A program made the position numbers and the translations under genes. The notes beneath the pieces are model-generated. The model ran no database searches. It was given only the letters and a program-made list of their open reading frames with translations, and had not been told where the DNA came from. From an uncultured Prevotellaceae bacterium (GTDB taxonomy: Bacteria > Bacteroidota > Bacteroidia > Bacteroidales > Muribaculaceae), in NCBI GenBank assembly GCA_900318205.1, contig ONJS01000017.1, positions 42,819 through 106,818 on the forward strand: a stretch of DNA of 64,000 nucleotides, written 5' to 3'. This document shows, in pieces, positions 20,225 through 43,500 of this stretch (positions are counted from its first letter, which is position 1; the number at the start of each line of letters is the position of its first letter).

Positions 20225-20713
20225 ATGATTATCATCAGGGAATATCAGCAGCAGGACATGGCCGAGGCCATGGGCATTTGGAACGAGGTGGTGCGTGAAG
20301 GCGTGGCGTTCCCGCAGGTCGAGGAATTGACCGAGCGTGAGGCTGACGGTTTCTTCAGCAGTCAGTCCTATACCGGCGTCGCTGTGGATAGCGAGACGGG
20401 CGAGCTTGTCGGTCTCTACATCCTACACCCCAACAACGTGGGCCGATGCGGTCACATCGCCAACACCAGCTATGCCGTCAGGTCGGACAAACGCGGGCTG
20501 CACATCGGCGAGCAACTTGTGAAAGACTCGCTGGCTATGGGTGCCCGACTGGGCTTTCGCCTCATGCAATTCAATGCAGTCGTGGCTGCCAACGTCCATG
20601 CCCTGCATCTCTATCAGCGCCTGGGCTTTACACAACTGGGCCGCATCCCTCAGGGCTTCCTCATGAAGGACGGCCACTACGAGGACATCATCCTCCTCTA
20701 CATCGAGTTGTGA
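20225..20713 (+). CDS. GNAT family N-acetyltransferase
   Basis: The 162-residue cytoplasmic acetyl-CoA-dependent transferase has motif A as YAVRSDKRGLHIGEQLVKDSL (pyrophosphate-binding R/KxxGxxxG layout) and motif B as ALHLYQRLGFTQLGRIP. It resembles the phosphinothricin/YhhY-type small-molecule acetyltransferases. It starts 15 bases after the broken VOC gene, and translation may depend on it. The substrate is unknown. Confidence 0.85.
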   Translation: MIIIREYQQQDMAEAMGIWNEVVREGVAFPQVEELTEREADGFFSSQSYTGVAVDSETGELVGLYILHPNNVGRCGHIANTSYAVRSDKRGLHIGEQLVKDSLAMGARLGFRLMQFNAVVAANVHALHLYQRLGFTQLGRIPQGFLMKDGHYEDIILLYIEL

Positions 20714-23009: not shown

Positions 23010-23957
23010 ATGAGGATTCCAACTTTATTTAAGGAATATATATGGCTTGTGAATACTATTCGTAGGGCGGGTGATGATGGAATCTCATTTGCAGAGATCA
23101 ATGAAAAGTGGCTTGAGATGGACATAAGCGAGGGTGTGGAACTCGCTCGTTCGACCTTCAACCGTCACAAGGATGCAATTGAGGACATCTTCGGCATCTA
23201 TATCGATTGCAACCGTCAGAACGGCTACAAGTATTACATCGGTAATCCCGAGGTGCTCCAAGGCGAAAGCGTCCAAAACTGGATGTTGAGCACCTTGACG
23301 GTGAACAACATCATCGGAGAAGCGATGTCGTTGCAGGATAGGATTCTTCTCCAACCGGCTATCGTAGAGGGGGATTACCTGAAGATGGCCATCGAGGCGA
23401 TGAAGAAGAATGTTAAACTGGCCGTGGATTATAGGAAATATGGTGATGAGGAACCCCGCCATTTGACATTTGAGCCTTATTGCATCAAACTGTTCAAACA
23501 GCGTTGGTACATCCTGGGCCACTTCCATCGAGACGCAATGGCCGACAGGCCAGAAGTGGACTATTTCGGTGTATTCTCGTTTGACCGCATCATGAACATG
23601 TCGCTTACCGACGACAAGTTCCAGATGGATCCCAGTTTCAACGCTCAAGCCTACTTCGAGGAATGTTTTGGCGCACTGGTCAACGATGATACTGTAGCCC
23701 AGCGGATCGTTATCAGGGTCTTTGGCGATGAAAGGTTCTACGTCCGAGACCTGCCCATCCACAAAAGCCAACGTGAGATCGGGCAGGGTGAGGGTTACAC
23801 CGACTTTGAACTGTTCATGCGCCCAACGGTAGACCTGAGTACTCACTTCGTGAGTCGCAGCTTTCTGATTAAGGTCCTCGAACCGCAATGGCTTGCCGAC
23901 GAAGTTTATCACATGCACCAGCAAGCAGTGCAGATGTACGAGGTCGATAATCAATAA
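23010..23957 (+). CDS. WYL-domain transcriptional regulator
   Basis: The 315-residue protein has an N-terminal winged helix-turn-helix (residues about 1-75, FAEINEKWLEMDISEGVELARSTFNRHKDAI) and a central WYL domain (about 130-215) with FEPYCIKLFKQRWYILGHF, where WYI replaces WYL, then the C-terminal extension. WYL proteins sense nucleic acid or nucleotide ligands and often control defence or RNA-repair loci. Its base composition is typical of the host, unlike the AT-rich TIR gene 14 bases upstream, so the two probably have different histories. A terminator follows, then the tRNA-like RNA cluster. Confidence 0.85.
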   Translation: MRIPTLFKEYIWLVNTIRRAGDDGISFAEINEKWLEMDISEGVELARSTFNRHKDAIEDIFGIYIDCNRQNGYKYYIGNPEVLQGESVQNWMLSTLTVNNIIGEAMSLQDRILLQPAIVEGDYLKMAIEAMKKNVKLAVDYRKYGDEEPRHLTFEPYCIKLFKQRWYILGHFHRDAMADRPEVDYFGVFSFDRIMNMSLTDDKFQMDPSFNAQAYFEECFGALVNDDTVAQRIVIRVFGDERFYVRDLPIHKSQREIGQGEGYTDFELFMRPTVDLSTHFVSRSFLIKVLEPQWLADEVYHMHQQAVQMYEVDNQ

Positions 23958-23983
23958 AAACTTACGGAAAATAATAATTTTAA

Positions 23984-24023
23984 GAGGCTGTCCCATGATT
24001 TGAGACAGCCTCGTGTTTTCTTT
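23984..24023 (+). terminator. terminator after the WYL gene
   Basis: GAGGCTGTC (23984-23992) and GACAGCCTC (24004-24012) followed by GTGTTTTCTTT. Confidence 0.8.
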
Positions 24024-24043
24024 GCACCGTAAAACAAGTTTGC

Positions 24044-24131
24044 GTGTGCAGGATGATGGTCGCAGGTTTGGTAGCGGGCGTTCCCGAAAGGGCACGAGAT
24101 AGGAGGTTCGAGTCCTACCCATCCTGCACAC
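24044..24131 (+). ncRNA. tRNA-like RNA unit A
   Basis: The 88-base unit is closed by a perfect 12-bp helix, GTGTGCAGGATG (24044-24055) with CATCCTGCACAC (24120-24131). Inside there is a D-arm-like hairpin (UCGC 24060-24063 with GCGG 24074-24077, loop AGGTTTGGTA containing GG), a second hairpin with a GAAA loop (24079-24085/24090-24096, one mismatch) and a T-arm-like hairpin around GGTTCGAG (TAGGA 24100-24104 with TCCTA 24113-24117). The cloverleaf layout is tRNA-like, but the acceptor-side helix is far longer than 7 bp and no CCA end or normal 7-base anticodon loop is present. Best seen as a tRNA mimic or Y-RNA-like molecule. Confidence 0.6.
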
Positions 24132-24136
24132 TTTTC

Positions 24137-24194
24137 GCTCCGACAAGGGTAGTAGTCCCGATTGAACTGGCAAGCTAGCTATGTGAGTCGGAGC
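24137..24194 (+). ncRNA. structured RNA unit B
   Basis: The 58-base unit is closed by a perfect 8-bp helix, GCTCCGAC (24137-24144) and GTCGGAGC (24187-24194), starting 5 bases after unit A. It contains a GGG-TAGTAGT-CCC hairpin (24147-24159). A T-arm is not obvious, so membership in the same class rests on position and on the closing helix. Confidence 0.35.
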
Positions 24195-24211
24195 ATTTTG
24201 AAAGTAAATAG

Positions 24212-24294
24212 GTGGGCAAGCAGACTCGCGATGTATGGAATGGCGGCCCCTCAATATGAGGGAGGGGAATGGTTCGACTCCATCACCTGCCCAC
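24212..24294 (+). ncRNA. tRNA-like RNA unit C
   Basis: The 83-base unit is closed by GTGGGCA (24212-24218) and TGCCCAC (24288-24294). It contains a CCCTC-AATAT-GAGGG hairpin (24248-24262) and a T-arm-like hairpin with loop TTCGACT (24273-24279) on an ATGG/CCAT stem. The 3' flank CACTATTAG is shared with unit D. Confidence 0.5.
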
Positions 24295-24309
24295 TATTAG
24301 AAATAAGCC

Positions 24310-24403
24310 GTGTGAGCAAGTAGAGCGCATGATACTTGGGACGGAGCGGCAATGCCCACAGGCATTGATATGAGGGTGACTCGATAACCCCACTTGCTCA
24401 CAC
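24310..24403 (+). ncRNA. tRNA-like RNA unit D
   Basis: The 94-base unit is closed by a perfect 12-bp helix, GTGTGAGCAAGT (24310-24321) and ACTTGCTCACAC (24392-24403). It carries TAGAGCGCAT, a D-arm-like string, a CAATGCC-CACA-GGCATTG hairpin (24350-24367) and a GGGT-GACTCGATA-ACCC hairpin at the T-arm position. It is followed by CACTATTAG-type sequence as in unit C. Confidence 0.5.
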
Positions 24404-24436
24404 TATTAGTGTCAAACCAAATAACTTATATATCAA

Positions 24437-24721
24437 ATGGAAGAGGAGGTTAAATATCAAAGGGAAGAGGACATCAAAGTAATGGTCGTGCTAAGGCTGA
24501 GGTACAGAAAGCCTGTGAATCCCTCATGTGTCATCGTAGAAATGAGTTGGAATGTATGGCGTGAATTCCTTCGTTCCAGCCACAAAGATAGGCTGAAGAT
24601 AGCACTGAGGATTCTCAACAGACCGTTCTTCGCTGAATACATCGAAGAGCTCTTGTGGATTCCCCTTGGGAAACAAAACAAGCTTCAAATCATTGACGAA
24701 AACGATATCATCAGAGTTTAA
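24437..24721 (+). CDS. small protein of unknown function, RNA-cluster ORF1
   Basis: The 94-residue soluble protein has no signal peptide, is rich in charged residues at the N-terminus (EEEVKYQREEDIKV) and has a central MSWNVWREFLRSSHKDRLKIALRIL helix-like segment. I recognise no family. It starts 33 bases after tRNA-like unit D, and the next ORF starts 20 bases after its stop, so the two are probably co-expressed with, or processed from, the RNA cluster. Confidence 0.55.
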   Translation: MEEEVKYQREEDIKVMVVLRLRYRKPVNPSCVIVEMSWNVWREFLRSSHKDRLKIALRILNRPFFAEYIEELLWIPLGKQNKLQIIDENDIIRV

Positions 24722-24741
24722 TCACCAATACATTGGATCAT

Positions 24742-25293
24742 ATGAGAATTAGAAACTGGTATAGCGAGAGAGCGCGGCTATTGCAAGAGATAGCCCTTCA
24801 ACAGCCCATAACAACTGACCATATAAGTATTAGATTTAAGAAACTGGAGGGCGAACAATCGGTGATGGTCATTCATGTTGATTACGAAGAGGTCAAAAAA
24901 CGCAAGTCGAAAACGCTCCATATTCCTATGACTGATGAGAACTTGGCCCTGTCTTATCTTCACGAATGGCTCCTATATATCAACCTCACTTGGTGCTGTG
25001 GTTCAGCTTCTGTTACCGTTGACAATGGTGAGGATAAATACACATTGAGCTTTGAGCCTGTCATCCACAACGATAGACGCAAGTTCAAAAATATGGCGAA
25101 TGACATCTTTGAAACCGCATATTTCTATGTGTACAGTTCAAAGAAGAAACGCATTGTCCTGTCGGCTTATATTGATTCATTCTTATTCTTTAGCCATCTA
25201 GATTCAATGATGATGAAGCACATTAAGGAGCATCAAATCTTTGAACTCGATGAAAATGGCAATCTTGCATCAATCCGCGAATACGTAGAATAA
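24742..25293 (+). CDS. protein of unknown function, RNA-cluster ORF2
   Basis: The 183-residue product starts at the ATG at 24742. The frame is open from a TTG at 24733, which is less likely. It is predicted soluble with alternating beta and alpha character (ISIRFKKLEGEQSVMVIHVDYEEVKKRKSK..., ITLSFEPVIHN-like strands) and no motif I can assign. Its stop codon is two bases before the closing helix of RNA unit E, so the ORF and RNA E are physically fused in one transcript. An RNA-binding role is a guess from context only. Confidence 0.6.
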   Translation: MRIRNWYSERARLLQEIALQQPITTDHISIRFKKLEGEQSVMVIHVDYEEVKKRKSKTLHIPMTDENLALSYLHEWLLYINLTWCCGSASVTVDNGEDKYTLSFEPVIHNDRRKFKNMANDIFETAYFYVYSSKKKRIVLSAYIDSFLFFSHLDSMMMKHIKEHQIFELDENGNLASIREYVE

Positions 25294-25294
25294 T

Positions 25295-25359
25295 CAAGTG
25301 TGGGTGAATGACGGTTGTTAGTGACAATCGCAGGTTTGAATCCTGCACGCCCACACTTG
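25295..25359 (+). ncRNA. tRNA-like RNA unit E
   Basis: The 65-base three-way junction is closed by CAAGTGTGGGTG (25295-25306) and CGCCCACACTTG (25348-25359), 12 bp with one G-T pair. It has a GGTTGT-TAGTG-ACAATC hairpin (25313-25329) and a canonical T-arm, GCAGG-TTTGAAT-CCTGC (25330-25346), with a perfect 5-bp stem and 7-base loop. There is no room for an anticodon arm, so it is not a functional elongator tRNA. TTGTTTTA follows the 3' end. Confidence 0.6.
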
Positions 25360-25406
25360 TTTTAAGAAGATAACTAACATGTTTCATTATCAAAATACAT
25401 TTAATC

Positions 25407-25799
25407 ATGAAGAAATTATTCTTATTCTTTTCACTGATGGTTGCCACTATGGCCTTAGTATCCTGCGGCAACGATGACGAACCAAATCTGCAGTTTGACA
25501 AAGAAACCATTGTTGGTGCATGGGAAATCACCGAAGTACAAGGTACCCCTGAATGGTGGTGGATCGCCAAGGGCACTGCGCTCACGTTCAATTCCAACGG
25601 CACTTGCTCTACAGGATTCTCTATGGAAGACTCCTATAAGATTGAGGGCGGCCAGGTCAAGACCTTTTACGCTGAAACGCAAGAGCCGATGTACATTTAT
25701 GAGCTCCAGGGTAAAAAGGGGAATACCTTGACCGTTAAGATGAAAGGAACGCTCGATGAAAGCAACCTTTCAACGGTCTTCAAGATGTCCAAGAAATAA
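25407..25799 (+). CDS. lipocalin-like lipoprotein
   Basis: The 130-residue product has a lipoprotein signal ending in MALVSCGNDDEP (Cys about residue 19) and the pattern ETIVGAWEITEVQG...ALTFNSNGTCSTGF...YELQGKKGNTLTVKMKG, typical of the small lipocalin-like domains abundant in Bacteroidales. It is envelope-anchored, and its ligand is unknown. It begins 47 bases after RNA unit E, with no separate promoter visible. Confidence 0.75.
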   Translation: MKKLFLFFSLMVATMALVSCGNDDEPNLQFDKETIVGAWEITEVQGTPEWWWIAKGTALTFNSNGTCSTGFSMEDSYKIEGGQVKTFYAETQEPMYIYELQGKKGNTLTVKMKGTLDESNLSTVFKMSKK

Positions 25800-40537: not shown

Positions 40538-43500
40538 ATGGATAAACTAAAACTCACACTTTTGCTTTTCTGCTTTATAGCTTTTTCTGCTATTCCTATA
40601 TTCGCAGATAATGATTATGATTTTCTAGCAGATGGTATCTATTATAATATTAATGGTGATAATGTTTCTGTTACATTGGGTCCATTAGACAATTATTATA
40701 GTGGCAGTTATACCGGTGATATTAGTATACCTGAGACTGTTAATTACAATGGTCGAACCTATACCGTAAATAAAATTGAAAGTGAAGCTTTTGTTCATTC
40801 AAGTATAACCAGTATTAATCTCCCCAAATCGATTACCGTAGTTGGCAATTACGCTTTTGAGTATTGTTCAAAGCTTAGAAAGATAACTTGTTTGGCAACG
40901 ACTCCACCCACTTCTTATAATCATTCATTCTACACATACAATGCTACGTTATATGTGCCCGTTGAATCTTTAAGCGCATACAAAAATACACTCTATTGGT
41001 CGTATTTTTACTATTTTGAACCAATTCACGATTTTGAACAAAACGGCATATATTATAATGTATTAGATCAGACCAATAAAACTGTTGAAGTAACTTATCG
41101 TGATACATATTATAACAGTTACAGTGGCATTGTAACCATACCATCATCGGTCAATTATGACGGAAATGTTTATACCGTAACTAGTATTGGCAATTCCGCG
41201 TTTCGAAATAGCAAAAACTTAACTGATGTATGCCTGCCTAAATCTATCAATTATATTGGTGAATATGCATTCTATGGATGTACAGGATTAATCAATTTCA
41301 CGTGTTTTGCAACGACTCCTCCAACTGTTCAGGACAATTCATTTAATTCATATTCAAATAATGCCACATTAAGAGTTCTCAAATTATACTTAGGTGCATA
41401 TAATTCTTATAACTGGAGTTCTTTCAAAAGCAGAGAGCCAATTTATGTTTACGATTTTGAGCAGGACGGATTATGTTATAATATTATATCACAAGCCGAT
41501 AAAACTGTCGAGGTCACTTATCGCGATACAACCTACAACAGTTATAATGGGGCAATTAATATCCCGTCAAAAGTTGTCTATACAGGTACTGAGAACGACA
41601 CTTATACAGGTACATCTTTTGATGTGAATCATATTGGAAACCATGCATTTGATAATTGTATAAGTTTATCAAGTGTAAATATACCTAATTCAATTTTAAC
41701 AATAGACAATAGGGCATTTTATAATTGTAAATATCTGACTACAATTAGCATTCCTAGTTCTGTTACTTCTATCGGAAGCGCAGCATTTCAAGGATGTAAC
41801 TCATTGAGCATACTTAACTATAATTCAGTTGTATGTGAGGATTTCTCTTCATGGTCAAGTAATCCATTTTATAACTTAAATATATCGACAATCAATGTTG
41901 GTGATGTTGTTCAAAGAATACCTGCATATTTTGCCTATGGAATGTCAAATCTGAGTAATCTATCAATTGGCAATTCAGTTACGTCTATTGGCGACTATGC
42001 GTTTTATAACTGTACAGAATTAAACAATTTTACACTTCCTAATTCTCTCAAAACTATAGGCAATTACTCTTTCCAAGGCTGTACTTCGATAACTACCGTC
42101 ACCATACCTAATTTAGTAACATCCATAGGTTATTCTGCATTTCAAGGTTGTTCATCATTGACTACTTTAAATTATAATGCTGTTTCTTGTTCAGGATTTA
42201 GTTCAAGTACGTATCATCCATTTTATAGTTTAAATATATCGACCATAAATGTTGGTGATGCTGTTCAAAAAATACCATCTTACTTTGCATATAATTTTAC
42301 AAAACTGACTAATTTATCAATTGGAAACTCTCTTACTTCGATCTGTGATTATTCGTTCTACAATTGCTCAAGTTTGTCCAGTCTAACTCTTCCTTTTAGT
42401 TTGACCTCTATCGGTAACTCGTCATTTAGTAATTGTACCTCTTTGGCGAGTATAACTATCCCCAAGAATGTTTCATTCATTGGAAGTAGTGCCTTCAAGA
42501 GTTGCTCGTCTCTTTATGAATTAAACTTCAATGCAATTAATTGCGATGATTTTAGTTCTGAGTCTCCATTTAGATACTCATATATCGGAACCATAAATGT
42601 TGGCAACAACGTAGAAAAGATTCCGGCCTATTTGGCATCGGGATTAACCACCTTAAGAAATCTAAATATCGGTAATTCAGTTAAAACTATTGGAACGTAT
42701 GCTTTTCAAGGATGCAATAGTTTAACCGAAGTTATATTTGGAAACTCCGTTGAAACAATTGATAATTTATCCTTTTTCCAATGTACTGGTCTTAAGAAGA
42801 TAACATTACCGAACACAGTTACTACAATCGGAACTTCTGCATTTTATGGATGTAGTGGTTTGACTGAAGTTATACTCCCGGCTTCGATTAAAACTCTAGG
42901 GTTTAGAGCTTTCTATTATTGTAACGGAATACAATCTGTATATAGTTATGCAGAAGATCCTCCCATTATGGGATCAGATGATTGTTTTACTGTATATAAT
43001 ACCGCAACATTGTATGTGCCGAATCTATATCTTGACACATATAAAAATACGCTTTATTGGAGTAGATTCTTGAAGATATATGGGTTGGATGAAAATGATA
43101 ATGTCCTAGCTTCTGACATTGCTTTGAATTTTACTGAAAAGGCTCTAAATGTTAATCAAACTTTACAGCTAATAGCAACAGTAACACCTGAAATTGCTTC
43201 AAATAAAACTGTTACTTGGTCGTCAAGCGATCCAATTATAGCTAACGTAAACAACGACGGGCTAGTAACTGCTTTTGCCGATGGAAATGCTACTATTACA
43301 GCGACCACTACAGATGGCACCAATTTAAGTGCATCTTGCAATTTGACTGTGACATCAATCCCTGTTGCATCAATTAAATTGAACAAGACAAGATTAACTC
43401 TTGATATTGATGAATCCTACCAATTGGTTGCCACGATTACGCCAACTAATGCAACAGACAAAACTATAGTTTGGTCTTCAAGCGACACTACTATCGCAAC

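Follow-up and report, generated by a model that had tools for sequence, protein, structure and literature searches.

The DNA analysed here (the window) is a stretch of 64,000 nucleotides from an uncultured Prevotellaceae bacterium placed in the Muribaculaceae (positions 42,819 to 106,818 of contig ONJS01000017.1). At positions 24044-25359 it carries five closed RNA units, A to E, together with two small open reading frames (ORFs), ORF1 and ORF2, located between the gene of a WYL-domain transcription regulator (wyl, 23010-23957) and a lipoprotein-like gene (25407-25799). These parts form a module, in which a WYL regulator and a palindromic promoter accompany tandem tRNA-like RNAs that have no anticodon loop and have variable closing stems, and the locus is set among restriction- and defence-type genes. 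Genomes are referred to by handles beginning with G (G000 is the window genome), and loci by handles beginning with L.

The wyl gene, the units and the two ORFs all read on the plus strand. The WYL protein (PF13280, 3.8e-8) is the proposed regulator of the array. Its gene is followed by the palindrome GAGGCTGTCCCATGATTTGAGACAGCCTC (23984-24012, with no strand), proposed as the WYL operator from a pattern that recurs after wyl orthologues and before units, and by TTTTCTTTGC (24016-24025, plus strand), read from the sequence as the -7-like promoter box of the array and followed by a 5' leader. The Bacteroidetes promoter consensus is TAnnTTTG.

Unit A (24044-24131) consists, in order, of the first strand of a stem of 12 base pairs (bp), a D-arm (TCGC-AGGTTTGGTA-GCGG), a GAAA-capped central hairpin at the place of the anticodon arm, a T-arm with the T-loop TTCGAGT, and the second strand of the stem. 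Its D-loop, AGGTTTGGTA, contains a GG, and in tRNA the GG of the D-loop pairs with the T-loop. Unit B (24137-24194) is closed by an 8-bp stem, two pairs of which show compensatory changes in relatives. Unit C (24212-24294), which is matched by its own model (R3; see below), is tRNA-like with the T-loop TTCGACT, and its closing helix has 7 contiguous bp in the window versus 9 bp in most relatives. The tRNA-like unit D (24310-24403) combines a 12-bp closing stem with a 7-bp central hairpin and a T-loop read as CTCGATA. ORF1 (24437-24721, 94 amino acids) and ORF2 (24742-25293, 183 amino acids) have homologues in relatives and belong to no known family. Unit E (25295-25359), which directly precedes the lipoprotein-like gene, is a minimal tRNA-like RNA with a 12-bp stem (one G-U pair), a hairpin and a perfect T-arm.

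The initial annotation, made from the sequence alone, had described five units closed by repeats of 12, 8, 7, 12 and 12 bp, and these are borne out by direct reading and by a shuffle test. Three 12-bp helices (at most one G-U pair, span 55-105) are found in 24001-25400, versus a mean of 0.02 and a maximum of 1 in 200 dinucleotide shuffles, any being present in 4 of the 200; the test excludes B and C, the closing helices of which are too short. The folding z-scores are -3.3 (A), -3.2 (B), -2.0 (C), -3.7 (D) and -5.6 (E). The arms described earlier for A (D- and T-arm), for C and D (T-arm-like) and for E (T-arm without an anticodon arm) are present, with the corrections that E has no D-arm and that B is structurally unlike the other units, having neither D-arm nor T-arm. 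D-arm-like hairpins are thus found in A, C and D (only 3 bp in D), T-arm-like hairpins in A, C, D and E, and a 7-nucleotide anticodon loop in the fold of none of the five.

The units share with tRNA and tRNA-Sec the GG-bearing D-loop, the 7-nucleotide T-loop and the T-arm beside the acceptor strand, and the acceptor is long as in tRNA-Sec. They differ in the missing anticodon loop and in their scores with the Rfam tRNA-Sec model, which reach 20.6 bits for E, 17.5 for C and 16.4 for A against a cut-off of 47. ARAGORN reports no tRNA across the window, and the Rfam scan of the window gives no match at gathering level. With Rfam 15, moreover, the family is uncalled in the 14 unit-bearing records scanned (the window, L035, L059, L162-L169 and L174-L176). 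In this respect the earlier suggestion of a class of tRNA-like RNA stands. A TTCRA-type T-loop and the D-arm and T-arm are present in two alignments of units (A4 and A12), with departures in, for example, units U10, G128b and V177. In the A-like unit E2 of L015 (L015:5730-5814), a 5-bp anticodon-like arm with a 7-nucleotide loop (CTAGGAA) can be read, unlike in the window units.

That the closing sequences differ while the pairing is kept had also been noted before, and the covariance models found covarying relatives in which this holds. In unit A the closing helix is formed in relatives by different yet still complementary sequences. Among 12 A-type units both sides have changed in 13 of the 27 pairs, including 8 pairs of the closing helix, and 94.4% of the cells are paired, versus 37-47% when the partners are slid by 1 to 3 columns. 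The covariation score of these units was reached by none of 500 shuffles, a test that is inflated by the relatedness of the sequences. In 23 diverse units the closing strands score at least 6 with their own partners in 22, versus 11.7% of 506 strand swaps. Comparison of loci gives an identity of 84-98% for units A and C and of 37-89% for the fourfold sites of wyl; since wyl and the array may have recombined, this conservation is support and not proof of constraint.

Many standalone copies of the unit are preceded, a few bases ahead of the stem, by a promoter box of their own and are followed closely by a terminator. Of the 23 units, 19 have a -7-like box (T[AT]nnTTTG) among the 45 bases preceding the core, versus 5.2% of 2074 random windows drawn from the same loci, and a terminator-like hairpin with a T run follows 13 of the 23, versus 8.2% of these windows. 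The core itself, TGATGGTCGCA...GGTAGCG, is kept across genera and viruses.

An RNA model (R1) built from nine units was searched in 101 genomes of the same genus. Matches were obtained in 15, in five of which the match is an ordinary tRNA-Ala gene (ARAGORN), so that ten genomes remain. Seven of these contain arrays (G000, G018, G020, G097, G106, G115 and G124), G010 has one decayed A-like unit, and G091 and G024 have a lone unit each. The C-type model R3 matched eight of the 101 genomes, namely the seven array genomes and, weakly, G073. The core of the lone G091 unit is near that of A, but its stem is AATGAATTG/CAATTCATT. In G010 model R2 gives a second, weak match in the wyl region (L078:3388-3472, 27.1 bits), just ahead of a lipoprotein-like gene.

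The composition of the array is rebuilt between loci, as is seen in five loci (L012-L016) recovered through ORF2 homology. The order is A-B-C-D-ORF1-ORF1'-ORF2-E in L012, and A-B1-B2-F-C-D followed by the ORFs and E as in L012 in L013. L014 and L015 have A-B-C-ORF1-ORF2 and then, at the place of E, a second palindrome and unit E2; L016 has A-B1-B2-C-ORF1-ORF2 and a truncated E2. One acetyltransferase gene adjoins the array locus upstream in G000 (window 20225-20713) and downstream in G124 (L018:2702-3096), and this shared flank suggests an insertion hotspot.

The WYL gene goes with the array, and the tie, which had been raised from the window alone, is tight by co-occurrence. A WYL orthologue (at least 77% identity) is present in ten of the 101 genus genomes, with units downstream in eight, at 0.1-10 kilobases (kb). 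The units follow wyl directly or, in G020 and G106, at up to about 10 kb with intervening genes. In the remaining two genomes the contig stops too early to tell whether units follow, 1.75 kb past wyl in G099 and inside the gene in G119.

The palindrome TGTCCCA-N5-TGRGACA, scored at the wyl loci, occurs within about 50 bp after wyl at all nine full-length orthologue loci. The palindrome and the TTTG box precede A in all seven array genomes and E2 in three (truncated E2 in G115). For genome-wide counts the narrower pattern TGTCCCANNNTTTGRGACA was used, of which there are 13 exact copies in the 101 genomes, versus one match for the backwards control. Ten of the copies stand before units (one of these truncated), two just after wyl ahead of another gene, and one elsewhere. 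On this co-occurrence the palindrome is proposed as the WYL operator. In ten less close WYL loci (45-57% identity), a different palindrome, TGTACC-N7-GGTACA, stands at the same place with the same geometry in five (L128, L129, L131, L132 and L133), and none was found in L125, L126, L127, L130 and L134, of which L125 and L127 have only about 110 bp behind the gene. In the five loci with this palindrome (around 2485-2510) it is followed by a gene for a putative HIRAN-like protein, by our own reading.

The arrays lie among restriction- and defence-type genes. In the window these include a TIR protein and the WYL regulator itself. G106 has a PD-(D/E)XK protein and a UvrD-type helicase, and the same genes are found in G020 (tblastn and gene order); apparent type I restriction genes lie upstream in G106 by our own reading. 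In G020, G106, G018 and G124 wyl is separated from the array by a gene of one family, the label of which, 'nuclease-like', is based on a match of the G020 member to HSDR_N (Pfam) below the cut-off. A cytosine methylase and restriction-type genes are found in G115 and, by gene order, in G097, and kinase and AbiL-like genes in G018. The lone units lie downstream of a Druantia type III DruE gene (G024) and upstream of Cas6 in a type III CRISPR locus (G091). Elsewhere, L108:4162-8495 contains HsdS-like genes in both orientations and a recombinase-like gene, and looks, again by our own reading, like a phase-variable type I restriction locus.

CapW and BrxR are WYL regulators of defence islands. The present locus resembles them in the WYL-domain protein, in the palindrome in the promoter behind it and in the defence-type genes around, and differs in that the first product at the array locus is a structured RNA array.

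Kinship of the units to the bacterial Y RNAs, in particular YrlA (RF02553), which belongs to Rsr-RtcB RNA-repair loci, had been suggested in the initial annotation and is rejected. Both have tRNA-like D-arm and T-arm modules, and in G000 a tandem array of Y-type RNAs likewise lies by a WYL-type regulator. The latter is on a separate contig, C50 (L072:842-5544), which contains WYL, six copies of a Y-type motif, TROVE and RtcB. One copy there reaches 46.8 bits with the YrlA model, and L074 gives 35 bits, both below the 69-bit cut-off. In YrlA, however, the T-arm comes before the D-arm, and the matched L072 copy has this permuted order (one motif copy is followed by a stretch that reads as an anticodon arm and a T-arm, permuted), whereas the window units have the unpermuted order of D-arm, central hairpin and T-arm, variable closing stems and no adjoining TROVE gene. 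The YrlA model gives no match to 23950-25420 up to E = 10. The motif GCCGTAG..ACTTC, with six copies in L072 and a single copy in both L073 and L074, is absent from the window, L012-L016 and L018. TROVE was found in three of the 11 unit-bearing genomes searched, on contigs other than those of the array or unit.

Like the palindrome and the defence-type neighbours, the phage-borne relatives of the units had gone unseen in the initial annotation. With model R2, 397 genomes of the family gave matches in nine genomes of the array genus and, as single copies, in eight genomes of six other genera, together with one tRNA-Pro (one of 19 matches); ARAGORN calls no tRNA at the places of the eight units of other genera. 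In 393 genomes of the order only G128 (two units) was added to G000, 24 of the 27 matches being tRNAs, and in 395 genomes of the phylum the 14 other matches were all tRNAs (14 of 15). In G128 (L075:4024-4623) a standalone unit lies about 120 bp downstream of the tmRNA gene, beside a remnant of gene X (see below).

A first pattern searched in viral contigs returned five stretches, which were rejected as chance matches, located in coding DNA by our own reading (16-18 bits in three, no match in two). A sharper pattern returned seven stretches on six contigs, and a variant of it the identical seven. Six of these, on five viral contigs, are units at 34.7-59.2 bits (R2), with no tRNA call by ARAGORN. 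In blastn searches the array had no match in INPHARED or PLSDB, and single units matched INPHARED only over stretches of about 20-28 bases, of which those with a listed annotation lie inside tRNA genes.

Most standalone units have phage-type genes nearby. In five of 18 standalone loci the unit is no more than about 110 bp from a gene for the terminase small subunit (L174, L175, L176 and L186) or from its remnant (L185), and in L181 the distance is about 1.9 kb, terminase genes being named by PHROGs in L174, L175, L181 and L186. Where terminase genes are near, the units run against them in the direction of transcription. In eight of the 18 loci (L075, L174, L175, L177, L181, L182, L184 and L186), gene X, with homologous ends and remnants included, lies 15-53 bp away, its 3' end converging with the unit. 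Matches to gene X, terminase, ParB-like (our own label) or ASCH-like proteins (E at most 1e-3, some weak) are found in 13 of the 18 loci, in none by self-match alone. There are none in L076, L077, L079, L173 and L179, nor in the 14 array-locus records, which cover all eight WYL-linked loci.

Gene X is a phage protein family (L174:7397-7894, L175:3743-4276, L181:6599-7126), which in L177 forms the end of a longer protein. It has no Pfam match (L175), no PHROG match (L174, L175) and a weak match to phrog_220 (L181), and a gene X search returned two contigs, both already found. ASCH was confirmed by Pfam (PF04266) in three of five proteins tested, all in the phage-type neighbourhood of standalone units (L182:6873-7247, L183:1806-2222 and L176:1405-1797).

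It is well supported that the unit A core belongs to an RNA family common to viral contigs and prophage-like Bacteroidales loci, where it occurs in single copies, most of them with a promoter box of their own in front. We infer a common descent of the array and the phage copies, with a phage as the probable source of the host array. The phi29 packaging RNA, a phage packaging RNA, is likewise a small structured RNA linked to packaging genes; the units of the array family differ in being tRNA-like and, near terminase genes, in being transcribed against them. No array of this kind and no terminase-adjacent tRNA-like RNA is described in the titles and abstract openings of the openly accessible literature, many subscription papers lying outside it.

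The anatomy and kinship of the units are well supported; their function we infer. With roughly even confidence, the array is taken to be a set of tRNA-elbow decoys that is inducible by infection and has a phage RNA as its relative. The WYL protein would hold the array promoter shut until infection or nucleic-acid stress, a sensing step taken from related regulators. Derepression would yield a set of RNAs presenting the tRNA elbow, that is, the contact of D-loop and T-loop, on differing stems. These RNAs would most likely act as decoys occupying an elbow-binding protein, which may be a phage protein whose normal ligand is the copy encoded by the phage itself, or an enzyme, of phage or host, that attacks tRNA, and the differences among the units would widen the range of partners matched. 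Because the elbow and stem are kept and the anticodon end is variable and, in most units, trimmed to a cap, the partner should bind the elbow and not the anticodon. A more specific version, which must be regarded as unlikely, is that the host island has turned the tRNA-like RNA of the phage into a weapon. Upon infection, counterfeits with differing stems, switched on by a WYL sensor, would flood the phage protein that depends on the genuine RNA, encoded by phages close to gene X and the terminase genes, and would thereby block a late step such as packaging. If true, counterfeit RNAs would here confer immunity, and phages would possess a class of RNA linked to packaging.

Several observations weigh against the decoy interpretation or the links on which it is built. 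The tie to the phage core is limited to units A and E2, the matches of B, C, D and E to it being weak or none. Of the six viral units, three reach just 35-38 bits (R2), inside the range of real tRNAs with the unit models (28-38 bits), and for these the claim rests on the shared motif, which is itself the search pattern. A clear unit is present in just one of seven contigs with close homologues of the terminase small subunit, and a weak 19.5-bit match in two more. The two standalone units in defence loci (G091 and G024) are without the TGTCCCANNNTTTGRGACA pattern. In a loose control, PADLOC models were matched by two of ten other window proteins, so that enrichment of defence genes around the array is not established. 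The sole exception to own-strand pairing is the G010 unit beside its WYL gene, in which most of the closing helix is lost, and closing helices may have other uses.

It is also conceivable, although doubtful, that the copies in phages and prophages serve in anti-defence or superinfection control by shielding host tRNA from anticodon nucleases, and that the island copies act likewise in the cell, as an antidote to the cell's own immunity. A tRNA mimic that lacks the anticodon would be bound by a tRNA nuclease but left uncut, and the host-type promoter boxes of the phage copies make expression in lysogens possible. Competitive inhibition of an anticodon nuclease is, moreover, raised as a possible role of YrlA in PMC7790460. 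However, no anticodon nuclease was found among the neighbouring proteins scanned, which are a part of the neighbours, with no genome-wide search.

A partnership with the adjoining proteins, the RNAs being antitoxin-like or structural partners of ORF1 and ORF2 as in type III toxin-antitoxin systems or Ro60-Y RNA particles, appears improbable, and here the earlier proposal of ORF1 and ORF2 as protein partners has weakened. ORF1 is present in seven of the eight WYL-linked loci (absent from G010) and ORF2 in six (absent from G124 and G010), and in G024 unit U10 has two ORF1 homologues on its downstream side. But an ORF1 homologue is found in just one of the 18 standalone loci (L077, G024) and ORF2 in none, leaving 17 of these and the G010 unit without either ORF. 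ORF1 homologues, found in six of 61 relatives, occur in L002 and L005 without a unit within about 1.5 kb on either side. No toxin or RNA-binding family was recognised: ORF1 has no match in Pfam, NCBIfam or PADLOC, ORF2 has none above cut-off in the same three, and a sequence search of PDB returned nothing for ORF2 and only E above 0.4 for ORF1. The predicted structure of ORF2 is unusable (mean predicted local distance difference test score, pLDDT, of 42). ToxI RNAs form the arrays of type III toxin-antitoxin systems. They resemble the units as tandem structured RNAs ahead of a small ORF; the units differ in being mutually unlike and tRNA-like, and no ToxN-like protein is seen in ORF1 or ORF2 with Pfam, PADLOC and NCBIfam. 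Still less probable is that the units are punctuation guiding the cuts of a longer ORF1/ORF2 transcript. They are interleaved with the ORFs, and E stands directly ahead of the lipoprotein-like gene, but at many standalone copies the unit has a promoter box and terminator of its own, and the combined length of closing stem and T-stem departs from the tRNA measure, which is 12 bp. Least probable of all, and very unlikely, is that the units are decayed or captured ordinary tRNA genes, such as remnants of integration sites. Their T-arm and D-arm cores are tRNA-like, and the unit models do score real tRNAs, as noted above. Against this stand the covarying closing stems of about 7-12 bp, the conservation above that of fourfold sites, the promoter boxes and terminators well above chance, and the core kept across genera and viruses. 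Decay of tRNA genes, named at the outset as what would overturn the proposal if it explained every unit, is refuted as the whole explanation by covariation, constraint and own-strand pairing, while the origin of the units from a tRNA is possible.

In the window genome, tRNA mimics thus occur at two distinct WYL-linked loci, of which only one has Ro60 and YrlA-like RNAs. More generally, a family of tRNA-like RNAs, with strong covariation and with promoters of its own, is common to phages and WYL-linked islands of Bacteroidales, and it becomes a testable question why a tRNA copy that lacks the anticodon is retained by phages and immune islands alike.

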